Below, piece by piece: positions 1 through 12,416 of a DNA stretch of 24,502 bases. The notes below the pieces were generated by a model. It worked only from the letters and a program-made list of their open reading frames with translations. It was not told the origin of the DNA and did not search any database. The position numbers were made by a program, and so were the translations under genes. The stretch is taken from positions 1-24,502 of the IMG/VR virus record IMGVR_UViG_3300021225_000024; one strand, 5' to 3'. Source of the DNA: a virus. The first letter of the stretch is position 1; each line of letters begins with the position of its first letter.

Positions 1-516
1 TTACCTTTTCTTTATTGGTCGCATTGTTTGATTTGCGCTTACTGCGGCTTCTTTTAAATTAACAGGGGCTTTTTGTTGTTTTGGTTTTTCGTTTCCAACT
101 GGAGTAGATTCCCATAAATCAGCAAAAGTTGTTGCTGGTTCTTCAGTAGAAGTTGATGCCGTTTTAGGCGTAAAATTTTGCATAGCCTCAACATGAACTG
201 GGTCTTTTTTTCCATAAGGTCTGTGTAGACCAAATTGATTCAAAAAAGTATCAGGAATATCTGCTGGTATATCGGCGGCTTCACCAGTTTCATGCAAACT
301 TGTGCCTGGTTTTGCAACTAAATTAGGATTAGAGCCACGAGAATTCCAAAGCTTAATCTGCTTTTCAGGAGTTCTGTATCCGCTATTTATTTGAATAGGC
401 TTACCAGTTTGAGCCTGCCAAGCATCATTTGCCGCCTGTAGTCGGCTGGCAAAATCAGACTTTAAGCCTGCATAAGCGTCGTTGCCTGATTCCCAAAGGT
501 CTGCAAAATTAGCCAT
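1..516 (-). CDS. M15-family peptidase (VanY-like, probable murein endopeptidase)
   Basis: Predicted zinc peptidase of the M15 (D-Ala-D-Ala carboxypeptidase/L-Ala-D-Glu endopeptidase) family, which cuts the peptide stems of peptidoglycan. The 171-aa protein has the family landmarks in order: SGYRTPEKQ at residues 45-53, the SxHxxGxAxD-type motif SLHETGEAADI at 73-83 (H75 and D82 as zinc ligands), and DPVHVE at 105-110 (third ligand H108, with D105 as likely general base). The catalytic domain ends near residue 112. A linker and a roughly 40-residue tail follow, and the tail repeats the N-terminal motif FADLWES (residues 4-10 and 131-137). The start codon overlaps the stop of the preceding gene as TAATG, so translation is probably coupled. 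Being joined to ejection-protein genes, it could be a virion-borne lysin as well as the lysis endolysin. No signal peptide or holin is visible. The stop codon is the first codon of the window, so the gene is complete. Confidence 0.85.
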   Translation of the reverse strand: MANFADLWESGNDAYAGLKSDFASRLQAANDAWQAQTGKPIQINSGYRTPEKQIKLWNSRGSNPNLVAKPGTSLHETGEAADIPADIPDTFLNQFGLHRPYGKKDPVHVEAMQNFTPKTASTSTEEPATTFADLWESTPVGNEKPKQQKAPVNLKEAAVSANQTMRPIKKR

Positions 517-1790
517 TATTGAATAAGCCCTAATTCTCTTGCTCGTTTAATTTTTCTACTCATTTCTGCTTGTTGATCTTTAGACATAGATGATTTAAGT
601 CTAGCAACTTGTGCAGGAGTAGCTTCTTGGAATAACCTAAAGTCATTCACTTCATTAAATGTATTTAAAGCTTGAGAGTATTTCTGTGGATCATTAGCAA
701 AAGGAGCCAAATACTTAGCTTTTGCTTGCTTCATTCTTTCTACGCCAATAAGCTGATCAGCAACATCTTTAATGGCTTGCTCATTCATTTTCTTGTTAGG
801 GTTTGCGGCTTCAGCCAATAAACGAGCCGCATCAGTATTGCCGCCAACCATAGCCAATAATGCACTATTTTTTGCCAACTCATCAGTTGCTGTTTTCTCT
901 GCTGTATAGACATCTATACCAATTGCATTTGCAATACCAGTAGCGAGTTCTTTGCGCTGACCGCCAACGCCTGTAAATGCTTCAGGAGCCAGTTTCTTAA
1001 TGTTTTGAAATAACGCAATTCTAGGAGTTGCCTCACTAGCTTCTTTTTGTGCATTTGCAAAATCAGTAGAGTAAGCTTCGGCCTGCCTGTTAGTCATTCC
1101 AACTTCAGCAGAAGAAGGATTAGGATTATATGGCTGGCCTTTTACTGGCTCAACAGTTCCTGTTGCAGGAGTTGTTCTAACAAATTGACCAGCTTGATTT
1201 GTAGTAAACGATGGCTGATTTTGCTGTGCAATATTAAGCGCACCAGCTAATGTCTGAGTAGCTCTTTTTATTTCATTAGGTGCTCTTCTAGCATCTTGCA
1301 AAATTGAAGCCTCAAAAGGATGGGCATACTGAGCAATGTCAGCATTACTCCAGCCCTTAGCTTTTAATTGTTTTTTAACTTCTTCACTAATATCAAATAA
1401 ACCATTTTGAACAGACTTAATTTGATCAGGCGTTGAATTAGGATTAAGCTTTTCAGCTTCAAGCAATCTTGGATCAGAGCCATAAGGAGCAAGAACAGAA
1501 TACATACTATTCATCTGTTCGTTTCCAAGCGTTACATTTGCCCTTTTAGCTTCTGATTGAGCTCTATCTGAATCAGCTTTTGCCTTAGCAACATCAGCCT
1601 CATAAGTTTCTCTTGCTCTTTGTGTTGCTAACTGACTTGCTCTAGTATTTTGTTGCGTTGCATTAATATTAGTAATGTCTGCCAAAGAAGCTAATGTGTT
1701 TGCGTTTACAGGCGCACCCATTTGTGCGCTTTGTGGCGCATTAAAAGCTTGTGATGTAACGCTACCGCTAGGAGAGAATTGGAATGCCAT
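516..1790 (-). CDS. Putative virion/DNA-ejection protein, 424 aa
   Basis: No precise function can be assigned. The protein is Ala-, Gln- and Asn-rich. Residues about 1-45 are low-complexity, residues 45-90 form a predicted charged helix (ATQRARETYEADVAKAKAD), and the C-terminal third is helical with a conserved-looking stretch NSALLAMVGGNTDAARLLAE followed by ANPNKKMNEQA. I recognise that stretch from proteins encoded beside the tail genes of many podophages. The extreme C-terminus is basic (SRKIKRARELGLIQ). Its place, directly after a P22 gp7-like gene and before a peptidoglycan hydrolase, matches the slot of P22 gp20/gp16, the ejection proteins that travel in the virion and form the conduit across the host envelope. 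The role is therefore inferred from position and composition. It starts 11 nt after the preceding gene and ends in a TAATG overlap with the peptidase gene. Confidence 0.6.
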   Translation of the reverse strand: MAFQFSPSGSVTSQAFNAPQSAQMGAPVNANTLASLADITNINATQQNTRASQLATQRARETYEADVAKAKADSDRAQSEAKRANVTLGNEQMNSMYSVLAPYGSDPRLLEAEKLNPNSTPDQIKSVQNGLFDISEEVKKQLKAKGWSNADIAQYAHPFEASILQDARRAPNEIKRATQTLAGALNIAQQNQPSFTTNQAGQFVRTTPATGTVEPVKGQPYNPNPSSAEVGMTNRQAEAYSTDFANAQKEASEATPRIALFQNIKKLAPEAFTGVGGQRKELATGIANAIGIDVYTAEKTATDELAKNSALLAMVGGNTDAARLLAEAANPNKKMNEQAIKDVADQLIGVERMKQAKAKYLAPFANDPQKYSQALNTFNEVNDFRLFQEATPAQVARLKSSMSKDQQAEMSRKIKRARELGLIQ

Positions 1791-1801
1791 TTATTTATTC
1801 C

Positions 1802-2659
1802 TTAAGCTACTCTTACAAGTTGTTGTGGCCTAGGATTGTATGCATCGCCAGCACCCTGGAATCCTTGACCAACAGTTCCATATAAAGCCGCAGTATTGCC
1901 AGCGGCGGCATTACCAGCATTAATATTGTTTCCTGCCAACAGATTGCCTTGACCAGTATATAAACTAGCCAAACTTTGACCTTGACCAATATTCATATTA
2001 GCTAAATTTTGACCTTGATTAGCCAACAAATTAGACTGTGCAGAACCATAACCGCTTTGTAAATTAGCTAAAGCCGTTGTAGGAGCCGCCGCCATTTGTG
2101 AAACACCAGTTAAATTACCAAAAATGTTATTACGCTGAGTTTGAAAATTATTAAAAGCGTTTTGATAAGCATTTGCCGCAAAATTTTGCGTAAAAGTGTT
2201 TAAACCTTGCAAAGCATTACCGCTTAATTGACCGCCAGCTGTGTTTGCCAAAGCCGCCGCATTTCTTTGACCCTGATCTAGCTGAAAAGCATAGTTAGGA
2301 GCCATTTGTGCATTTAAATCTTGGTTATTAAACTGCCTAGTTCCATAACCTGAAGTAATAAGATTTGAAAGAGCACCATTGGAAACATTGGCTAAATCAC
2401 CATAGGACTGCAAAGTTCCTGTTGCAACAGGATAAATGTCTCTTAACGCATTTCCAGCCGCAGTATATTGATTATTTAAGTTTGTTTGTGCGTTGTTATA
2501 ACCAGTATTTATCTGATTTCTAGCTTCAGGATAATATTGATTAATAATTCCGTTGGCGTTGGAATAGCCTTGCTGTTGCTGTCTATTCGCTTGGTCTAAG
2601 CCAAACGCTGTAGTTCCAGCATTTAATACGCTTCCAACTGCGGATGCTATTGCGCCCAT
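1802..2659 (-). CDS. P22 gp7-like DNA transfer (ejection) protein
   Basis: Probable internal virion protein that is ejected with the genome and helps DNA cross the cell envelope, as P22 gp7 does. The 285-aa sequence opens with a small glycine/alanine-rich apolar segment (MGAIASAVGSVLNAGTTAFG) that could insert in membrane. A long Asn/Gln/Ala/Gly-rich repetitive region follows, with recurring units such as NLANMNIGQGQSLASLYTGQ. By my count about 45 of 285 residues are asparagine, while lysine and most other charged residues are nearly absent. This composition and the N-terminal apolar patch are typical of phage 'DNA transfer protein p7' annotations. A clear AGGAG Shine-Dalgarno sequence stands 5 nt before the ATG. 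Its order after gp4-like and gp10-like genes supports the call. The low complexity keeps the assignment from being certain. Confidence 0.7.
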   Translation of the reverse strand: MGAIASAVGSVLNAGTTAFGLDQANRQQQQGYSNANGIINQYYPEARNQINTGYNNAQTNLNNQYTAAGNALRDIYPVATGTLQSYGDLANVSNGALSNLITSGYGTRQFNNQDLNAQMAPNYAFQLDQGQRNAAALANTAGGQLSGNALQGLNTFTQNFAANAYQNAFNNFQTQRNNIFGNLTGVSQMAAAPTTALANLQSGYGSAQSNLLANQGQNLANMNIGQGQSLASLYTGQGNLLAGNNINAGNAAAGNTAALYGTVGQGFQGAGDAYNPRPQQLVRVA

Positions 2660-2667
2660 TTTTTCTC

Positions 2668-3135
2668 CTAATGCCTAATTATCGGCTCTTGCAACAATTT
2701 AGTAAATACTTTATCTATTGGCTTACAGCCTAAATATTTAAAAAGGCTGGAATTATCAAACTCAAACTTTGTGCAATACAGCACTAAATCAACTCCAATA
2801 GCTTTTAAATGCTCTTGAGCAAACTTAAACATTTTAATTCCGTTATGCCCTTTTCTGTATTCTTGTTTTAAAAAATATATGTCCTCATGAGCAGTCAAAC
2901 AATTTTTAGAATGCATATGAGGAGCAACAAAAAATACAATATAACCAACTAATTCATCACCATCTTTGGCCGTTACAAACACAAGTTTTCCAGCCTTGTA
3001 AATGCTTTCGTAAGCATCAAAATCTAAATCTAAAGGAAAATCCTTTAAAACCTCAATTTCATCATAATGAGCAACAGAAAGCGCCTTAAATTTAGGCAAA
3101 TTTTCCATCCAATCGTCTATTTTGTATGTAATCAT
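2668..3135 (-). CDS. GNAT-fold N-acetyltransferase-like protein
   Basis: A 155-aa protein with the layout of the GNAT superfamily, which transfers acetyl groups from acetyl-CoA. A beta strand at 51-56 (LVFVTAKD) is followed by ELVGYIVFFV (61-70), then a motif-A region DIYFLKQEYRKGHNGIKMF (85-103), where the acetyl-CoA pyrophosphate loop would lie, and a helix FAQEHLKAIG. A C-terminal strand-turn VLYCTKFEFDNSSLFKYLGC is typical of motif B. The loop reads EYRKGHNGI rather than the ideal Q/RxxGxG/A, so catalytic competence is uncertain. The start ATG overlaps the preceding stop (ATGA). The gene lies between gp10-like and gp7-like genes, the slot of gp26-gp14 in P22, so a structural or head-modifying role is as possible as a metabolic one. 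The substrate is unknown. Confidence 0.65.
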   Translation of the reverse strand: MITYKIDDWMENLPKFKALSVAHYDEIEVLKDFPLDLDFDAYESIYKAGKLVFVTAKDGDELVGYIVFFVAPHMHSKNCLTAHEDIYFLKQEYRKGHNGIKMFKFAQEHLKAIGVDLVLYCTKFEFDNSSLFKYLGCKPIDKVFTKLLQEPIIRH

Positions 3136-3371
3136 GGATTGTAGTAAGGCACTTTATAAGGTTTACCATCTACAGTCACATTCATAAATCCTGCTGGATT
3201 TGCTGGCAAAGTAGCCGATCCTGTTGTGGCAGTAGTCGATGAAGTGTTATTTAATAAATTTAGAAAAAACTGAGTCCAAGCAATCGTTGGCCTATTAATT
3301 GGTGCTGGCTCTAAAAAATCCGTTTGTGGCAAAGGATTAACTGTATTTCCAGCAAATATTTGGTTAGCCAT
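3132..3371 (-). CDS. Small putative tail/structural protein, 79 aa
   Basis: I do not recognise a characterised family. The protein has an N-terminal Asn/Pro-rich part (NTVNPLPQTDFLEPAPINRP), a short amphipathic helix with WTQFFLNLLNN, a Ser/Thr-rich linker, and a C-terminal beta-hairpin-like ending NVTVDGKPYKVPYYNP. Similar endings of the form VxVxGxxYKVPYY occur in small proteins near tail genes of other phages, going by memory. It is locked into the operon at both ends: TAATG overlap with the gp10-like gene upstream and ATGA overlap with the acetyltransferase gene downstream. In P22 the gene after gp10 is the tail needle gp26. This product has the position but is far too short for a long trimeric coiled-coil needle, and no heptad pattern is seen. 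Confidence 0.6.
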   Translation of the reverse strand: MANQIFAGNTVNPLPQTDFLEPAPINRPTIAWTQFFLNLLNNTSSTTATTGSATLPANPAGFMNVTVDGKPYKVPYYNP

Positions 3372-5362
3372 TAGTTCTCTCCGACAGAAGCTTTAAGATT
3401 AGCAGAAACAATAACCGCTTTAACAGGGTCTGTTACCACAACTTCAAATATTTTATCTCTTGACCAGCCTAAACGCCGCCAAATTGAACGATGTTTGTAT
3501 TTTCCCTGTTGTCCAATATCTTGCCAATATTCTTTAGACCATGTTGAGCCGCCGTCATTAGACCAGCGAAGCATGGCTTTTGGATTGTATAGCGTGTCAT
3601 TAGCTTGTATTTGACCTGGATAACCTAATACATAAATTTCCTGAACATCCAATTTCAAAGGATCATTTAATTCGATTGTATAAGGACTTCCAAGGTAAAT
3701 ATTTCTGTCTCTTGAAAATCCACCATTGCCAACGCCAGGCTGAAACTGTATTTGCAATTCGTCAAAATATTGTCTTTGTAAGTCAGAAACAATATGTGGA
3801 GCTCTACGCAGTCTGCGAATTTCCTGACCATTATCAGTATAGAAACTTTGATCTAACTGATAAAGATTGCCATTTTCCCAATCTCCAACAACAACAATTC
3901 CTTGGAATACGGCGGCGCAATTACTGCGATGGCGATGATAAACATTATTATCATCTACCCATAACCACTTATGCCATAAACCAGTAGTTAAATCGTAAGC
4001 CCAAGTTATATCTATTGTTGGAAAACTGACAACATATACTTCATGGCCTTCAAGCTGATATGTATATGCAACAGCATCTGCCGTATATTGATCTAACAAG
4101 CTATTTTCAACAGCATGAGTAGAAATACGCTGTGGAGTGTAACCATTCATTAAAACCACTTGATTGACACCACGAATATTCTGTGAAACATAAGCAAAAG
4201 CATTCCCAAGCCTTGCCACAGAATAAGGAGCAACAATACCTTGCTGTGTTGAGCTACCTGGAATGCGTTGGTAAGCTAATGGAAATGTGCCTTGGTCAGT
4301 CCATACTTCTGATGATTTTTCGCCCAATAAATAAAGCTGACCATTGTTAGCGACCAAAGAAACCAAGTTATCAGGAGAAGTAAATTTACTTCCAAAGCTT
4401 AATGGCTGTGTAATTGGGCTAAGAATGTCAGAAACGGCAAATTGTTGGCTATTTGGTCTGCTATAAATGAAATAATTGTCATTTACATCAACAACTTGAC
4501 CGCCTTCAAAAGCACCATCTGTTGATGGCAATATAGCAAATTGATGGGCATACATTGTTTCTGAACTAACAGTTAAAGAGCCGCCGCTTAATATATAAGT
4601 TCCTGCTCCACCTGTTCCTGTCCCTAAAGCTGTAATAATGGTGTTTACAGGAATTCCTGAGCCAGTAATAGTTGTTCCAATTGATAAAGAGCCTGATGTA
4701 ACAGAAGAAACTGTTAATGTAACAACAACTGGAGAACCAGCAGATGCTATTGATCCTGTAAAAACACAGCAAGCTGGATCGGTATTAAATGTTTCCGATG
4801 CTATATATTGTGTATTATTTACAGTCCAACTAAAACCTGATCCAGCAGTAATAGTTGTTCCAGGCAATACACCAACTCCAAAAACTTGAGAACCAATACT
4901 TACAGTTCCATTAGTAAGGTTTGTAATATTTAAAGTATTGCCACCAATTGATCCTGTAAAAGTTGTTGTATTAGGAGTATCAATTAGCCATGAATAACGA
5001 TTGTTTCCATCAACAATATAAACATAAATACCATTATCCGTAATGCTTACAGGGCCAGTAGTGGTTAAAAGCTGACCAATAATTGCAGATGCACCATTGT
5101 AAGAAACGGCATAAACATACTCTCCACAAACTGCAATTAATTGAGAGCCTCCTGAAGATATTGTTCTTAAACCACGAACAGGAGCATCAGGCTGTAAATT
5201 AGTTAGAAACTTTAAGCCTGGAGTAGGATAAAGAGCAACAACACCTCTTTCGCCCTGCGCTTTTGTAGGGTCTATTTCAGGTCGCCAATTAATACATTCT
5301 TGGTCATCCTGATAGATGGAAGGGGCTGTGTAGGATGCTCCTACAAATCCAAAGTCTGCCAT
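3371..5362 (-). CDS. P22 gp10-like head-completion (packaged DNA stabilisation) protein
   Basis: Predicted tail-hub protein that seals the portal after packaging, in the family of P22 gp10 (phage stabilisation protein). The 663-aa sequence starts with the typical opening, FVGASYTAPSIYQDDQECIN, followed by a run of short beta-propeller-like repeats: LYPTPGL, RGLRTISSGGSQLIAVCGE, NGIYVYIVDGN, DNYFIYSRPNSQQFAVSD, LYLLGEKSSEVWTDQG and AFAYVSQNIRGVNQVVLMNG, then WAYDLTTGLWHKW. The C-terminus carries a strand-rich SNDGGSTWSKEYWQDIG segment. Residues about 132-268 are foreign to this pattern: two successive Thr/Gly-rich modules sit in the first third, and the propeller sequence resumes at AHQFAILPSTDG. 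Without the insert the length would be near 525 aa, close to the usual family size. The start overlaps the gp4-like stop (TAATG), so the two completion proteins are translationally coupled. Confidence 0.88.
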   Translation of the reverse strand: MADFGFVGASYTAPSIYQDDQECINWRPEIDPTKAQGERGVVALYPTPGLKFLTNLQPDAPVRGLRTISSGGSQLIAVCGEYVYAVSYNGASAIIGQLLTTTGPVSITDNGIYVYIVDGNNRYSWLIDTPNTTTFTGSIGGNTLNITNLTNGTVSIGSQVFGVGVLPGTTITAGSGFSWTVNNTQYIASETFNTDPACCVFTGSIASAGSPVVVTLTVSSVTSGSLSIGTTITGSGIPVNTIITALGTGTGGAGTYILSGGSLTVSSETMYAHQFAILPSTDGAFEGGQVVDVNDNYFIYSRPNSQQFAVSDILSPITQPLSFGSKFTSPDNLVSLVANNGQLYLLGEKSSEVWTDQGTFPLAYQRIPGSSTQQGIVAPYSVARLGNAFAYVSQNIRGVNQVVLMNGYTPQRISTHAVENSLLDQYTADAVAYTYQLEGHEVYVVSFPTIDITWAYDLTTGLWHKWLWVDDNNVYHRHRSNCAAVFQGIVVVGDWENGNLYQLDQSFYTDNGQEIRRLRRAPHIVSDLQRQYFDELQIQFQPGVGNGGFSRDRNIYLGSPYTIELNDPLKLDVQEIYVLGYPGQIQANDTLYNPKAMLRWSNDGGSTWSKEYWQDIGQQGKYKHRSIWRRLGWSRDKIFEVVVTDPVKAVIVSANLKASVGEN
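4559..4969 (-). repeat. Tandem pair of inserted beta-type modules in the gp10-like gene
   Basis: This stretch encodes residues about 132-268 of the gp10-like protein. Two related modules are seen. Copy 1 (about 4778-4963) opens with FTGSIGGNTLNIT, continues with SIGSQVFGVGVLPGTTITAG and closes with NTQYIASETF. Copy 2 (about 4565-4765) opens with FTGSIASAGS, continues with SIGTTITGSGI and ITALGTGTGGAGTYILSGG, and closes with TVSSETM. The order of motifs is the same in both: an FTGSI strand, a GxxIxGxGI turn, a TxITA strand and a SET[FM] exit. The same module occurs twice in the neighbouring gp4-like gene. The function is unknown. An immunoglobulin-like or other small beta fold exposed on the tail surface is inferred. 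Confidence 0.75.
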
Positions 5363-6561
5363 TAGCCAGTAAATCCGCCGTTAAGAATCCAGCCAGCGTC
5401 ACGAGCTTTGCCTGAAAGCATGGCATCAGGAAAGCTTGCAACAGTAACAGGCTTCATATTAGTCCGTTTTAGCGTTGCTTTTGATTGTGCCGCATAAGCA
5501 TTAATCATAGTAATTTGTGTTGCAGAAGCTTTTCCATACATAGGCATTAAGCGTTCAGCCAAATTCCATCTTAAAGCCATAGAGTAGCCTTGTGGGAAGC
5601 TTAAATTCTCATATAGATTGTCATAAGTGCTAAAAATAGTCTCAGCAAACAAATGCATTTCGCCTTGAGAAGGATTAGGCCACAAAGTTACATTTCCTGA
5701 CTCTGATCCTGGATTGAAATAAAGAGCTTTAGGCCAAGGGCCATTTAGCGTTTTTAGTCCAATTTGATTGTAGTTATCAAGCGAAAGAATTCCTACTTGA
5801 TAGTCTAATCCGCCGTTCAAAACAGGCTGTCCGTTGCTAGTAGTATTAACCCTAACGAAAGCAGAATTAATATTTAATGGCTTTTGATAGTAGAGAGTGA
5901 TTGAAATATCGGTCACAGTTGCCGTCATAGCTACGCTGGCAACGCTTTGGCTTGCGCTTACTTGGTATGTGCCAACTCCACCACTTGCGTTCAATACAGC
6001 CGTTATAGTCGTTCCTGATGTAACGCCAGTTCCGCTAATAATTGCGCCAGTTCCTAGGTATCCAGCAGAGATTGCGCTAACAGTTAGCGTAGTGCCTGAA
6101 ATAGAGCCTGTAAAGGCTGGTGTGGGCGTTGTCGCATCATTATTTAGCCTATATGTTCCAGCTTCATTTACATTACCGCCTGCTCCAGTTAAAAACTCAA
6201 CAATTTTTGTATTTACACCGCTTATGCCAACGCCACTTAGGGTTTGCCCTTGGGCTACTGCGCCACTTGTAACACCAGTTACAGTTAAAACTTTTCCTGA
6301 AATAGTGCCTGTAATTGCCGCACCAATGTAATTTGCTGTGCTAGGGTCAGGGCCAATCGTATATTGAGTTTGACCTGGAATTACAGGGAATACAATTTCG
6401 GTCACATTGTAGACCATCATGCCTTCATTTGACCATTGGTCAATAAGGTCATTTAACATATCTAAAGCATCTTGAGCCGCTTCAGGAGTTGGAGTTTCAC
6501 CAGCTTCTAATGCGCCAATGTCTTTTAAAGCTCTGCTAATAATGTCAATTGGCTGAGTCAT
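5362..6561 (-). CDS. P22 gp4-like head-completion protein (tail accessory factor)
   Basis: Predicted first adaptor ring below the portal, of the P22 gp4 family. The N-terminus is the family's helical part (DIISRALKDIGALEAGETPT, then AAQDALDMLNDLIDQWSNEG), which docks onto the portal. FPVIPGQTQYTIGP at 58-71 follows. Residues after about 218 resume the family pattern with NINSAFVRV, LDNYNQIGLKTLNGPWPKAL, SGNVTLWPNPSQG and the helix YSMALRWNLAERLMPMYGK. P22 gp4 is about 165 aa; environmental relatives are near 200-260 aa, so 399 aa is long. The excess is explained by residues about 75-216, two tandem modules of the same type as in the gp10-like protein. Only a weak GGAA precedes the ATG. The gene's own stop overlaps the next start as TAATG. 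Confidence 0.85.
   Translation of the reverse strand: MTQPIDIISRALKDIGALEAGETPTPEAAQDALDMLNDLIDQWSNEGMMVYNVTEIVFPVIPGQTQYTIGPDPSTANYIGAAITGTISGKVLTVTGVTSGAVAQGQTLSGVGISGVNTKIVEFLTGAGGNVNEAGTYRLNNDATTPTPAFTGSISGTTLTVSAISAGYLGTGAIISGTGVTSGTTITAVLNASGGVGTYQVSASQSVASVAMTATVTDISITLYYQKPLNINSAFVRVNTTSNGQPVLNGGLDYQVGILSLDNYNQIGLKTLNGPWPKALYFNPGSESGNVTLWPNPSQGEMHLFAETIFSTYDNLYENLSFPQGYSMALRWNLAERLMPMYGKASATQITMINAYAAQSKATLKRTNMKPVTVASFPDAMLSGKARDAGWILNGGFTG
5914..6339 (-). repeat. Tandem pair of inserted beta-type modules in the gp4-like gene
   Basis: This stretch encodes residues about 75-216 of the gp4-like protein. Copy 1 (about 6136-6327) reads ITGTISGKVLTVTGVTSG, then QGQTLSGVGISGVNTKI and EAGTYRLNND. 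Copy 2 (about 5926-6117) reads FTGSISGTTLTVSAISAG, then ISGTGVTSGTTITA and SGGVGTYQVSASQSVAS. The strand-turn order matches the pair in the gp10-like gene. Copy 2 is closest to the apparent consensus, while copy 1 has drifted at its TxITA strand (NTKIVEF). The pair separates the conserved YTIGP and AFVR segments of the gp4 family, so it appears to be an insertion into a loop. Confidence 0.75.
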
Positions 6562-6570
6562 AATATTCCG

Positions 6571-6879
6571 TTAAATTTTGACTGTAAAAGTAGGAAGAAC
6601 CCAAGGCTTCTTTAATGAAACTGGCTCTTTTGCCATCAATTGCTTTTCTAAATTATCCTCAATAATACATTTTTCATCAATTATTGATTCATTTTTTATC
6701 CAAGCAATTACATCTTTTTCTGTTGTTAGTTTTTGCAAAAAATGAGTTTTATCTTTAAAAGTCCAAAAACCTTCAGTTGTAACTGAATTTTCATTGTCAG
6801 AAGCTGTAACGCTGTATTTAACTTGCGTTATTTCATCAGCTTCTTCAATAATTTCTAAGACTTTCCAAGAAAAAATCAT
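6571..6879 (-). CDS. Small conserved phage protein, DUF7936-like, 102 aa
   Basis: No molecular function is known. The layout resembles a small phage family I know as DUF7936: an N-terminal strand MIFSWKVLEI, a second strand QVKYSVTASDNENSVTTEG with a following aromatic FWTF, a helix EKDVIAWIKNE, an acidic helix EDNLEKQLMAKEP, and a Pro-rich exit KKPWVLPTF. Members of this family typically lie beside tail-fibre genes, as here, where it sits between the glycine-rich fibre gene and the gp4-like gene. A virion or chaperone-like role for the fibre is possible but unproven. The start overlaps the fibre-gene stop (ATGA). The family name is given from memory of the pattern, not a search. Confidence 0.55.
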   Translation of the reverse strand: MIFSWKVLEIIEEADEITQVKYSVTASDNENSVTTEGFWTFKDKTHFLQKLTTEKDVIAWIKNESIIDEKCIIEDNLEKQLMAKEPVSLKKPWVLPTFTVKI

Positions 6880-7955
6880 GCTGTGTAAGTCCCTGAAGTG
6901 GTAAATTTCATAACTGTATTAGCACCATAAGTTGTTACAGTTGGAGAACCAGTAGTTGTGCCTGAATAATTTACTGTAGGAACAGAAACAATAATTATTC
7001 CTGATCCACCATTTCCACCATTTTTGTCTACACCATTCCATCCTGCTCCACCACCACCACCGCCAGTATTAACAGTTCCATTTGAGCCATTATTGTCTCC
7101 ACTTCCATTTCCGCCGCCGCCAGTTCCGCCAGTTCCGCCACTATTTCCTCCTGAAAATAATGAAGAACCACCACCACCGCCACCAGCATAATAAATAGTA
7201 GAGCCAGTTAATCCATTAGTTAATCCAATACCGCCATTTCCTGCGCCAGTATTAGTTCCATTTCCACCAGCCGCACCAGCACCGCCTCCGCCACCAGCAC
7301 CTTGTGCGCCGCTACCTGAACCGCCGTTGTTTCCCTGACCGCTAGTTCCAACTCCTGAGTTTCCTCCTCCTGAACCACCTGATCCGCCAGTATTACCTCC
7401 ATAGCCACCACCAATTGCATCAGCTATTCCAGTAATAGAAGAGTTTGCGCCTGAAGAACCGCTACCACCTCCTGAACCAATAACAAAGTAATAAGTGTTT
7501 CCTGGCGTAAATGAAACAGAACTTGCAATAAAACCGCCAGCACCTCCACCGCCACCAATCACATTTCCTGGTGAAGGCGATCCGCCACCACCACCAGCAA
7601 CAACTAAATAATTTGCTGTATATAAACCTTCAGGAACTGTGGTAAATTTTTCCCAAGAACCAGCAACATATCCTTCAAAAAAACCGCCTGCATCTGTGCA
7701 GTAACGAATTTCTCCATTAGTAGGCGATGTTGGTCTTTGTGCTCCAGTTCCAACAGGAAGTCCTAAAGCAGTTGTTCCTGTAAATAATGGAAGCCCTGTA
7801 ACAGTTAAATTTGGAACAGTTAAAGTCCCTGTGTTGTCTATATATAAAAGCGTTCCATTAGCCGCTGGAAGAGTCATGGTGTAATCAGATGCAGTATCTG
7901 CATTTGATAATGTGACAGTTCCGCCTGAATTACCTAAAAATATTAATTGCGACAT
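6876..7955 (-). CDS. Glycine-rich tail fibre/adhesin, 359 aa
   Basis: Probable receptor-binding fibre. The N-terminal part (1-60) has GNSGGTVTLSNADTASDYTM and a run of short strands, then the linker GTGAQRPTSPTNGEIRY (69-85) that often precedes phage fibre tips. From YLVVAGGGGG (116-125) to about residue 316 nearly half the residues are glycine, in blocks such as GGGGAGGF, GGSGGGNSG and YYAGGGGGG. The protein ends in a beta-rich cap IIIVSVPTVNYSG and KFTTSGTYTA. Such domains can fold as a sandwich of polyglycine-II helices, as in the tip adhesin of Salmonella phage S16, where the loops contact the receptor. The C-terminal 290 residues are clearly paralogous to the end of the 862-aa fibre upstream. 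AGGAAG stands 4 nt before the ATG. Confidence 0.75.
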   Translation of the reverse strand: MSQLIFLGNSGGTVTLSNADTASDYTMTLPAANGTLLYIDNTGTLTVPNLTVTGLPLFTGTTALGLPVGTGAQRPTSPTNGEIRYCTDAGGFFEGYVAGSWEKFTTVPEGLYTANYLVVAGGGGGSPSPGNVIGGGGGAGGFIASSVSFTPGNTYYFVIGSGGGSGSSGANSSITGIADAIGGGYGGNTGGSGGSGGGNSGVGTSGQGNNGGSGSGAQGAGGGGGAGAAGGNGTNTGAGNGGIGLTNGLTGSTIYYAGGGGGGSSLFSGGNSGGTGGTGGGGNGSGDNNGSNGTVNTGGGGGGAGWNGVDKNGGNGGSGIIIVSVPTVNYSGTTTGSPTVTTYGANTVMKFTTSGTYTA

Positions 7956-7972
7956 GATTCTTCCTATGTATA

Positions 7973-8338
7973 TTAGGCTAATTCAATCCAAGATTGTGTT
8001 GCTTCATTCCATTGATAATATTTGCCATCATTAGGATAAGGAATAGGAGCTTCCCATAGCCAACTTGAAGTATTTAATATCCAACTTGCATAAGGTTTTG
8101 GAGCATAAAAAACATCATTTGTAACATCGTATGTATCGCCAATTGATGCGTAATTTGCCCTTAATGGTATTCCACCATCAGGTTGACCATCCTGACCATA
8201 GTGAACATTTCCACGAGTGTTATAGGATGTTTGAATCCATTGACCTGGGCTTGAATCTACGAATGTATTAAAAAACTCAGGATCAGCAACAATAACTTGC
8301 GTGACCTTTCCATCTAATACTTTTGCAAAATGCGACAT
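7973..8338 (-). CDS. Conserved phage protein of the MSHFA type, 121 aa
   Basis: The function is unknown. The sequence matches a pattern I recognise from many marine and freshwater phages, including T4-like cyanophages: MSHFAKVLDGKVTQVIVAD at the start, GQWIQTSYNTRGNVHYG in the first half, a region of LRANYASIGDTYD, then YASWILN, WLWEAPIPYP, DGKYYQWNEATQSW. Tryptophan and tyrosine are abundant, and the last third contains repeated W/Y strand motifs (WILN-SSWLWEAP-YYQWNE-SWIELA) suggestive of small beta hairpins. The family is usually next to structural genes. Here it is between two fibre genes that share a glycine-rich tip, so a fibre-associated or virion role is inferred. GGAG lies 6 nt before the ATG. 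Confidence 0.6.
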   Translation of the reverse strand: MSHFAKVLDGKVTQVIVADPEFFNTFVDSSPGQWIQTSYNTRGNVHYGQDGQPDGGIPLRANYASIGDTYDVTNDVFYAPKPYASWILNTSSWLWEAPIPYPNDGKYYQWNEATQSWIELA

Positions 8339-8350
8339 GAATTGCTCCTT

Positions 8351-10939
8351 TTAAGCTGTGTAAGTTCCACTAGAAGTGAATGAATGAACATAGTAAGTAG
8401 TTCCACCTGATTGATAAGAAGTTACTGTTCCGCCAGTTCCTTTTTGTGATGCGCTTGCATAAGAAATAATTACTATACCTGATCCACCACCAGCACCGCT
8501 GGAGCCGCCGCCACCACCGCCTCCTGTATTAACAGTTCCAGCAGTTCCGTTAGCTTGACCACCTCCTGCTCCACCACCACCAGTTCCTCCTGAACTTCCT
8601 GTTGCTCCAGCAGTTCCTGAACCGCCTCCACCTCCGCCAGCATAGTAGACGCTTGCGCCTGTAATTGTGGAAGCAATTCCTACTCCACCATTACCGCAAA
8701 CACGATAACCGCTTGCATCACTTCCAACTGCGCCAGCGCCACCGCCGCCGCCTGAAATATTTGGATTTGCGCCACTCTGACCATAGCCACCACGATTGCC
8801 TTGGCCTGAAGTTCCTGTTCCTGGAGTTCCTGAATCTTGTGCTCCAGCACCACTTCCACCATTTCCGCTGTTACCATTACCGCCACCGATTGCAGTTGCT
8901 ATGCCGCTAATAACCGAATTAGACCCTGCCGAACCAGCACCGCCACCAGCACCAACAGTAACTGTGTAGGCGGTTGTTGGCGTCACAGTTGCAGTTGCAG
9001 TAAGCAAACCTCCTGCGCCTCCGCCACCGCCTGAACCGCCACCGCCGCCAGCAACTACTAAATAAGTGATCGTGTAACTTTGAGAAGTCAGCCCTGTCCA
9101 ACCAGTTCCACTATAAACTTCATATTGATTTAGTGTTGTGTTATAACGCATCGCACCATTAGCAGGGCTTGATGGTCTTTGTGCAGTTGTGCCACTAGGA
9201 GGATTAATTGCTCCAGTAGCACCGCTTAAGTTTAAAATTCCTAAACTTGGATTCCAAGAAAGCTCTGTGGAACTTGTATTAATTCCAGTAATTGTTCCGC
9301 TAGTTGCGCTAGTAAATGTTAAATAACGAGTTGCATTTGTGCTTGTATCGTCAGTTACAGTTAAACCAGCAGAAATAGTAGACCAAGCAAATGCGCTTCC
9401 ATTCCATCCTAAATAGGAGCTAGTTACAGTTGGAGCAGTAATAAAGCTAGTTGCCCCTGCGCCTGTTTGATAAGCTATTTGATTTGCTGTTCCGCTTGCT
9501 AAATTGGTTGCTGTAGTTGCGCTTGTAGCAGAAGTTGCTGTTGCCGCATTGCCACCAATAGAAAGACTTGATGCAGTTCCAGTTAGGCCAGTTCCAGGGC
9601 CACTAAATTGAGAAGTGGCTGTAATTGTTGTTCCACGCACTGTGCTGGCAGTTGTGCCACCAATTGCAGGAGGACTAGAAAGGTCTAAAGAGCCGCCTAA
9701 AGTTAAACTTCCGCTAGAAGTAACTGTTCCAGTAAGGGTAATTCCTGATACTGTTCCAGTTCCGCTAACTGATGTAACACCAGTTGCAGGAGCATTTGCC
9801 CATGTTGGAACTCCTGCCGCTAAAGTCAAAATTTGACCATTAGTGCCAATACCTAAGAATGTAGTTGCTCCAGCCGCAGATTGATAAGGCAAAGAACCAG
9901 CCGAACCGCCAGCTAAATTAGTGGCTGTTGTAGCTGATGTTGCACTTGTAGCTGTTGCGGCATTACCGCCAATAGACAATCCAGTAGCAGTTCCAGTTAA
10001 TCCTGTGCCTGGGCCTGTAAATTGCGTTCCAGCAGTAATAGTCGTGCCAGTTACTGCGGCGGCAGTTGTTCCACCAATAGGTGTGCCATTAATTGTTCCG
10101 CCAGTAATCGCTACGCTGTTAGCATTTTGTGTAGACATAGTGCCAAGACCTGACACTTGCGTATTGGAAATAGCAATTGTTGTGTCGGTTGCACTAGTAA
10201 TTTGACCTTGAGCATTTACCGCAACAACAGGAACAGAGCTTGCAGAGCCATAAGTTGCCGCAGTAACGCCAGTATTGGTAATGCTAAAAGTGTATGCGGC
10301 TAAGGTTAATCCTGTTCCAGCAAAATAAGTGCCAGCAACGCTAAAATTTGACCAATTAATATCGGTTACGCCTAAAGTTCCGCCACCTTGGGCAGAGCAA
10401 TACCATGCAGAGCCTTTTTGTGAGCCATATTCTACAAATCCAATCGCAGAAATATATTCATTCCAAGAGTCGCCATCGCTTGCATAAGACCAAGATCCAC
10501 TAGAAGCCACATAAATGCCGTTTTGAGCCGCATTTGCTTGGTTTTTGACCAATACTCTATCACCAGCAACAGTTTGGTATGTGTCGATGATAGGAAAACC
10601 TGAAAGCGTAATTGGTGCAGTTGTAGCCACTTGGAATGGTTGTTTCCAACTTAATCCTGAAGCCACAGAATCTACATATAGCTTATTAGCAATATCTGTG
10701 GAGCCTACTGGAGTAGCCGCTACTTGACCGCTTGTAAATGATCCAGTTGATGGAGTAATTGAGCCAATTGGACTGCTGTCAATTGTGCTGTTTGTAATGT
10801 GTAAACCAGATTGATCAGGATCAATAGTTGCTACAAATGGCTGTCCCTGACCAATAAAAGTCTGAAATTGACCATCAACACTAAAATAAGCCTGAACAGG
10901 CAGTAAATTCTGAACTGTAGAATTAGCTGGATTAGCCAT
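8351..10939 (-). CDS. Long tail fibre protein, 862 aa
   Basis: Predicted tail fibre. Four regions are visible. Residues 1-90 hold an attachment segment including NLLPVQAYFSVDGQFQTFIG (11-30), related to the N-terminus of the next upstream gene, and then DIANKLYVDSVASGL. Residues 95-205 contain a fibre domain with AGDRVLVKNQANAAQNGIYV, common in phage fibres. Residues 205-530 are a low-complexity Thr/Ser/Gly/Ala shaft that includes a 72-residue unit twice (289-361 and 427-499). Residues 583-862 hold the linker GTTAQRPSSPANGAMRYN, a glycine-rich tip (628-822) and the cap HSFTSSGTYTA. The tip is probably a polyglycine-II-type receptor-binding domain. The ATG follows AAGGA at 5 nt. No chaperone or auto-cleavage domain was recognised. 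Confidence 0.8.
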   Translation of the reverse strand: MANPANSTVQNLLPVQAYFSVDGQFQTFIGQGQPFVATIDPDQSGLHITNSTIDSSPIGSITPSTGSFTSGQVAATPVGSTDIANKLYVDSVASGLSWKQPFQVATTAPITLSGFPIIDTYQTVAGDRVLVKNQANAAQNGIYVASSGSWSYASDGDSWNEYISAIGFVEYGSQKGSAWYCSAQGGGTLGVTDINWSNFSVAGTYFAGTGLTLAAYTFSITNTGVTAATYGSASSVPVVAVNAQGQITSATDTTIAISNTQVSGLGTMSTQNANSVAITGGTINGTPIGGTTAAAVTGTTITAGTQFTGPGTGLTGTATGLSIGGNAATATSATSATTATNLAGGSAGSLPYQSAAGATTFLGIGTNGQILTLAAGVPTWANAPATGVTSVSGTGTVSGITLTGTVTSSGSLTLGGSLDLSSPPAIGGTTASTVRGTTITATSQFSGPGTGLTGTASSLSIGGNAATATSATSATTATNLASGTANQIAYQTGAGATSFITAPTVTSSYLGWNGSAFAWSTISAGLTVTDDTSTNATRYLTFTSATSGTITGINTSSTELSWNPSLGILNLSGATGAINPPSGTTAQRPSSPANGAMRYNTTLNQYEVYSGTGWTGLTSQSYTITYLVVAGGGGGSGGGGGAGGLLTATATVTPTTAYTVTVGAGGGAGSAGSNSVISGIATAIGGGNGNSGNGGSGAGAQDSGTPGTGTSGQGNRGGYGQSGANPNISGGGGGAGAVGSDASGYRVCGNGGVGIASTITGASVYYAGGGGGGSGTAGATGSSGGTGGGGAGGGQANGTAGTVNTGGGGGGGSSGAGGGSGIVIISYASASQKGTGGTVTSYQSGGTTYYVHSFTSSGTYTA
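9443..9661 (-). repeat. Fibre shaft repeat, copy 2
   Basis: This encodes residues 427-499 of the 862-aa fibre. It matches residues 289-361 with a period of 138 residues. Shared landmarks are GGTTA, TVRGTTIT, GPGTGLTGTA, LSIGGNAATATSATSATTAT and QTGAGATSF. The DNA has drifted at third positions but is still visibly related. Confidence 0.75.
9857..10075 (-). repeat. Fibre shaft repeat, copy 1
   Basis: This encodes residues 289-361 of the 862-aa fibre, with the landmarks GGTTA, AVTGTTIT, GPGTGLTGTA, LSIGGNAATATSATSATTAT and QSAAGATTF. It is the partner of the copy at 9443-9661. Between the copies lies a stretch with GTNGQILTLAAGVPTWANAP, a strand motif frequent in phage fibre shafts. Confidence 0.75.
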
Positions 10940-11972: not shown

Positions 11973-12416
11973 TTAGTTAGAAACGCTAAAGTCGTAACCA
12001 TAAACATAAACATCAAATGTTGCGCCAGCGACAGCTGTTGTCAATGGAGCAGTAACATTTAAGTATAGGTTTTGAACAGTAGTTGCAGTTGTTTGTGCTG
12101 AAGGAGCAACTAAAGACACACCTTGAGCAGAGCTCAAGTTAGCGGCAGTAATTGCGCCATACAAGCTAGAACCACCTGAAGTTGTCGCTACGCCCAAAGC
12201 TAGGCCAGTTGGCGTTACAGCCGCACCAGCGTTGTTTAGGTTAGTTACGATCAAAGACTGTGGCAAAAATACTGAACTGTTGTTCACTTGCATTGCATAA
12301 GAAGCAATAGCGTTAGCGTTTACATTTTTCAAAGTAGCGATCAAGCGTAGTGTTTGGCTTGTCGTTACATTTGATGGATGCGAACTAGATGTGACTGCTG
12401 GTCCTGGATTAGACAT
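11973..12416 (-). CDS. Putative capsid decoration or minor head protein, 147 aa
   Basis: The family is not recognised. The protein is rich in Ser, Thr, Ala, Val and Asn with very few charged residues. Visible strand-like segments are TSQTLRLIATLKNVN, SYAMQVNNSSVFLPQSLIVT, QNLYLNVTAPL and TFDVYVYGYDFSVSN. This is the composition of an exposed beta-sandwich virion protein. It lies 49 nt after the coat gene and right before the terminator, the place where many phages encode capsid decoration or cement proteins, so that role is inferred from context. A purine-rich AAAGGAAAA site lies just before the ATG. Confidence 0.55.
   Translation of the reverse strand: MSNPGPAVTSSSHPSNVTTSQTLRLIATLKNVNANAIASYAMQVNNSSVFLPQSLIVTNLNNAGAAVTPTGLALGVATTSGGSSLYGAITAANLSSAQGVSLVAPSAQTTATTVQNLYLNVTAPLTTAVAGATFDVYVYGYDFSVSN

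Follow-up and report, generated by a model that had tools for sequence, protein, structure and literature searches.

The window analysed here, a virus record of 24.5 kb taken over its whole length, displayed a gene order typical of P22-like short-tailed phages, read on the minus strand: genes for the terminase, portal and coat protein are followed by fibre-like genes and then by those of a gp4-like and a gp10-like protein (Table 1). Assignment of the latter to P22 gp10 and head closure family Hc3 was consistent at both profile and fold level. Its AF2 model superposed on P22 gp10 (8eap_D) with a TM(target) of 0.83 in Foldseek, and the Pfam family PF11134 was matched below cut-off only (18.9 vs 25 bits).

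The gp4-like protein matched profiles phrog_12985 (E 1e-40) and phrog_637 (adaptor Ad3). Its helical N- and C-terminal parts are common to P22 gp4, which was matched at these two parts only (profile search, E 3e-6) and whose counterparts were predicted as helices at residues 4-45 and 326-368 in the AF2 model. A beta sequence is found between them and contains the insert described below. Fibre-dock domains of this kind are present in the adaptors of SU10, T7 and KP32 and absent in those of P22 and Sf6 (PMC9509320). Likewise, the structures nearest to the gp4-like model in Foldseek were dock-bearing podovirus adaptors (9k09_d and others, e.g. that of cyanophage A4). The gp4 label originally given to this protein therefore suits its helical P22-type parts, but not its central beta region, which has no equivalent in gp4 of P22 or Sf6.

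Table 1. Position of genes, inserts and modules (HMM spans) in the window, with the hits of a search using one module copy as query.
Feature	Position	Strand	One-copy search hit (E)	Remarks
gp4-like head-tail adaptor, 399 aa	5362-6561	-		P22-type helical N and C parts, beta (fibre-dock-type) domain between them holding the insert
Whole gp4 insert, residues 72-227	5881-6348	-		8 residues instead in insert-free relatives
Module gp4a, residues 83-145	6127-6315	-	6145-6318 (4e-5)	Equals the sole module of one-module relatives; NVNEAGTY signature
Module gp4b, residues 150-213	5923-6114	-	5920-6117 (6e-33, self)	Presence or absence differs among close relatives
gp10-like head closure/nozzle protein, 663 aa	3371-5362	-		phrog_578 (Hc3), E 5e-92
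Whole gp10 insert, residues 130-274	4541-4975	-		3 residues instead in insert-free relatives
Module gp10a, residues 135-192	4787-4960	-	4790-4960 (5e-7)	No GTY strand motif; fastest-diverging copy
Module gp10b, residues 201-271	4550-4762	-	4559-4741 (6e-6)	
Second gp10 insertion, near residues 546-592	3587-3727	-		Variable, unrelated to the module; low pLDDT
Proteins of one cluster	8351-10939 and 6876-7955	-		Common glycine-rich C-terminal region matching phrog_2295
147-residue protein	11973-12416	-		Directly after the coat gene; no PHROG match

Three further observations were made in the window. The second insertion of the gp10-like protein ranged in relatives from absent to 548 residues (L306). 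The phrog_2295 region provided a second instance of one domain reused by neighbouring genes. Finally, the position of the 147-residue protein suggests a decoration protein.

Four copies of a small beta module

The inserts of the adaptor and nozzle proteins each consist of a tandem pair of a module of about 65 residues. Searching the record with one copy returned exactly four places, all on the minus strand and all within these two genes (Table 1; E 5e-7 to 4e-5 besides the query itself), and each of the six pairwise local alignments between copies scored above all 2,000 composition-preserving shuffles (z 5.7-10.0). The original prediction, which had recognized four homologous copies arranged as two tandem pairs, was thus confirmed. 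The same applied to the motifs it had listed: [FI]TG[ST]I, a GxGI/V turn and a TxI (TxITA-type) strand occurred in every copy, GTY in three. Three of the copies were 32-47% identical to the first and no recent DNA duplication between copies was visible in a DNA repeat search, so that the repeats are either old or were acquired separately.

Models of both proteins, inserts included, placed the modules among confidently predicted regions. The pLDDT was 85 for the gp4-like protein (modules mostly 81-97) and 89 for the gp10-like protein (modules mostly 85-97), and DSSP assignments were consistent with some six strands per module. In both hosts the module would therefore be a compact beta domain. 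Judging from strand order, the fibre dock is the most likely location of the gp4 insert, and the gp10 insert would emerge from a beta-hairpin of the propeller.

Databases provided few counterparts. Neither Pfam nor NCBIfam contained a model matching the insert; a weak Pfam match to FeoA (E 0.036) was treated as chance. PDB profile searches with three module alignments (A4, A8 and A10) yielded no convincing relative and no significant match. The module was included in profiles of PHROGs 21413 (unknown) and 38233 (tail fiber), yet these are whole-protein families rather than descriptions of the module, for which none was found among open-licence papers either.

The best structural lead, although borderline, is the capsid decoration protein of Arthrobacter phage Bridgette (PDB 8eci chain 1). 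Foldseek aligned it to the gp4 model with a probability of 1.00 and 31% identity over 74 columns, the query being the whole model and the aligned part of gp4 not being given. It was also the best PDB profile match of the gp4 insert family, through a GIPAGTTITAV type motif. Only profiles built from that family picked it up, at the insert region, with E values of 0.011 and 0.027 that carried a high composition bias (in one case the bias term exceeded the score). The two further differ in that the Bridgette protein is free-standing on the capsid whereas the module of the window is an insert.

Insertion sites and copy number among relatives

Relatives at 32-68% identity cleanly lacked all or part of the module stretch. 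Neither insert was present in Rhodoferax phage P26218 and environmental phage ctfPj964, while ctn9Y15 and cta1H496 (gp4 67-68% identical) carried a single module in gp4 and had an empty gp10 site. Insert-free gp4 simply reads YTIGP, a short linker and RP; among 66 gp4 representatives, this gap was 8-16 residues long when empty, and reached about 80-100 when it held one module and about 155 when it held two. The gp10 site was occupied by the short linker, by one module (L153), by one divergent module (L267, L272, L276 and L281-L283) or by two or more modules. The join points are visible in both proteins, and on this sequence comparison both inserts are true insertions, in agreement with the initial view that each pair interrupts its family sequence; neither region is an integral part of the fold throughout its family.

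Copy number was followed in 230 gp4/gp10 pairs (147 after dereplication), with a tree drawn from the concatenated gp4 and gp10 cores. It amounted to 0, 1 or 2 in gp4 and to 0, 1, 2 or 3 in gp10 (one locus reads 4), and the (gp4, gp10) states included (0,0), (1,0), (2,0), (1,2), (2,2), (1,3), (2,3) and rarer ones. On the tree, parsimony required one change for the presence of canonical gp4 modules and two for canonical gp10 modules. The second gp4 module (gp4b) required nine, against 27 with shuffled labels. In one sister clade, both sites were occupied by a divergent subtype that is likely, though not certainly, homologous to the canonical module (probability 79%, E 1.5e-5 in profile comparison). 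Among cultured relatives, Xanthomonas phage PBR31 had a divergent module in its gp4.

Modules were present in gp4 and absent from gp10 at 73 of the surveyed loci, among them five (L003 and L005-L008) whose gp4 is 84% identical to that of the window over its whole length. Since copy numbers vary and gp4 is often filled where gp10 is empty, the two inserts are independent in number and do not form a matched pair. This disagrees with the paired, coordinated insertion first envisaged. It also bears on the proposal that gp4 and gp10 modules co-evolved to bind each other as a mutual clamp locking the head-tail joint. Such a clamp would profit from the fact that gp4 and gp10 adjoin in P22-type tails, and the survey gave one hint in its favour: none of the 230 pairs had modules in gp10 together with an empty gp4, which leaves room for a functional link. 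Yet the abundance of gp4-only loci, down to such close relatives, the free combination of counts and the fact that gp10 copies are not nearest to gp4 copies of their own genome (see below) make the clamp very improbable.

Spread between adjacent genes had also been put forward, which would imply local copying. When each of 248 gp10 copies was compared with modules outside gp10, the nearest by identity was in an unrelated protein in 231 cases and in gp4 of another genome in the remaining 17; gp4 of the same genome was never the nearest (0/248). Copying from gp4 to gp10 within one genome was accordingly rejected. Being nearer to modules of unrelated proteins, the gp10 copies appear to have been drawn from a shared module pool; as consensus searches had enriched the set used for comparison, the result speaks for such a pool and not for any particular donor.

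Carriers among other virion proteins and selection on the module

Sequence collections were scanned with a DNA motif and a consensus query, the first module alignment (A4) being too divergent. With the bare module as query, tblastn against phage records returned nothing even at E 10, whereas gp4 including its module did retrieve such records; the low-complexity filter probably accounts for this, and the negative result does not speak for absence of the module. A module HMM run on the fetched loci recorded 313 carriers, which formed 77 clusters of unrelated host sequence once the module was masked, and it was internal in 65 of these clusters. An alignment of 64 unrelated carriers recovered only the module consensus, mean column identity being 7% overall. 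Carriers matched tail sheaths of two kinds, a neck terminator, Phage_capsid, Phage_capsid_4, the minor capsid protein gp53 of XM1, Phage_tube_2, Baseplate_J and T4 Gp8, as well as fibre, spike, collar and pectate-lyase families. In BFVD, an annotated HK97 major capsid protein shared 69 columns at 51% identity and an rmsd of 0.9 Å. The notion of a mobile domain, also part of the original prediction, thus gained support from unrelated hosts as well as from insert-free relatives.

Some loci carried the module in neighbouring genes. In four prophage-like loci from Rhizobium, Paraburkholderia and Sulfuritalea (L215, L222, L224 and L229), an adjacent terminator (phrog_1876) and sheath (phrog_205) were both carriers, a parallel to the gp4/gp10 situation in phages that appear to be contractile-tailed. 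The Sulfuritalea locus (L229, positions 1-8966) contained at least four module genes, namely a two-copy fragment, a head protein (phrog_1912), the neck terminator and the tail sheath.

Module-bearing contigs of the genome collection were spread over many phyla and included one archaeal bin; prophages or wrongly binned phage DNA may account for some of them. The module was also contained in at least one protein of a Chitinophagaceae genome (L226, positions 4353-7529), which bears FG-GAP and Por_Secre_tail domains, so that its occurrence is not restricted to phage proteins. Two Indivirus collagen-repeat proteins (BFVD A0A1V0SCQ2 and A0A1V0SDM6) aligned with the gp4 model (333-364 columns, 20-22% identity), with low TM-scores in the viral Foldseek search, and possibly represent module copies in giant viruses.

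In the clade of the window, mean identity was 63% and 73% for the gp10 modules as compared to 83-85% for the gp10 core, and 75-81% for the gp4 modules as compared to 83-88% for their core. In one-module lineages, the values for gp4 modules and core were 69% and 69-74%, respectively. From 13 non-independent pairs, dN/dS was 0.15 for gp4 modules, 0.19 for gp10 modules and 0.08 for both cores. The modules are under purifying selection, relaxed about twofold relative to the host cores; they are no mere ballast, but no rapidly switching receptor domain either.

Two alternatives have to be weighed against these figures. The modules could be specific receptor-binding domains that determine host range and are diversified by selection, as the faster divergence of gp10 modules and their vicinity to the likely fibre-docking region would suggest. 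We regard this as unlikely: dN/dS is well under 1, gp4 modules of one-module lineages diverge no faster than their core, and occurrence in sheath, tube, capsid and terminator proteins is unlike a dedicated receptor-binding domain. Alternatively, a compact, self-folding domain could be tolerated in exposed loops as a selfish or neutral hitch-hiker with little function. The very many unrelated carriers, the repeated gain and loss of gp4b among close relatives and the relaxed constraint are all compatible with that. Against it, purifying selection persists and the same two sites were repeatedly occupied, in one sister clade by the divergent subtype, and we consider it somewhat less probable still than receptor binding.

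A putative collar decoration and its known counterparts

The explanation we prefer, and hold to be probable, is that of a generic and mobile beta module that decorates virion surfaces, behaves much like phage Ig-like domains and, in the window, would ring the fibre-docking collar. The two proteins would have acquired their modules in separate events, gp4 in a loop of its fibre-dock-type beta domain and gp10 in a beta-hairpin of its propeller. Insertion into gp4 would have come first, its second copy being gained or lost repeatedly thereafter; gp10 would have been filled later within one clade, and independently in one or more distant lineages. In the virion, 12 adaptors would contribute 24 modules and six nozzle proteins another 12, forming a knobbly belt around the docking site of the tail fibres. 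Their exposure, which we infer from related structures, would offer additional solvent-exposed beta surface for weak multivalent contacts with host or environmental surfaces; alternatively, the belt could brace the collar and the fibre bases. The decorated collar of the original prediction therefore remains plausible as a mobile surface decoration, though not as a clamp between gp4 and gp10.

On a wider scale, a single uncatalogued small beta fold, akin to a free-standing capsid decoration protein, may occur in nearly every exposed class of virion protein of tailed phages, possibly also in giant viruses and some bacteria, and often in several neighbouring genes of one phage. It would then constitute a shared surface coating as broad as that of phage Ig-like domains, a generalization to which we give about an even chance.

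Phage proteins contain many small beta domains of unclear use, among which Ig-like domains are the best studied. The present module is apparently as promiscuous as these, yet it is absent from the curated models of Pfam and NCBIfam, and annotation therefore misses its carriers or calls them 'tail fiber' or 'unknown'. The gp4/gp10 lineage further provides a natural copy-number series at constant sites (0-2 in gp4, none to several in gp10), which makes the use of inserted surface domains directly testable.

Phage Ig-like domains (Fraser et al. 2006, as cited in PMC10684548; Hoc and capsid insertions, PMC10385173) offer the closest parallel. Like them, the module is a small beta domain shared by a wide range of unrelated virion proteins, in which it is commonly internal or in tandem and varies between close relatives; promiscuous insertion into virion structural proteins is a trait of both. 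Unlike them, it is shorter, with its 65 or so residues and about six predicted strands, and the insert matched no curated Ig-like family model in Pfam or NCBIfam.

A second parallel is the nozzle protein gp17 of SU10, in which four Ig-like domains are inserted between blades 2 and 3 of the propeller and, by rearranging, lengthen the nozzle when the genome is released (PMC9509320). In both cases, a short-tailed phage has beta domains placed in series within the beta-propeller of its nozzle; no sequence relation was seen between the domains of gp17 and the module.

As to function, decoration of the collar surface, either for adhesion or for bracing, is the likeliest role by analogy with two precedents. 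An environmental-adhesion role was suggested for displayed Ig-like domains, Hoc among them (PMC10385173). In Staphylococcus phage 812, loss of the neck decoration proteins accompanies deformed or broken necks, and these beta-containing decorations of the adaptor, stopper and terminator belt were proposed to brace the neck (PMC12886913). The belt envisaged here would resemble them, except that the decorations of phage 812 are separate proteins whereas the modules of the window are inserts.
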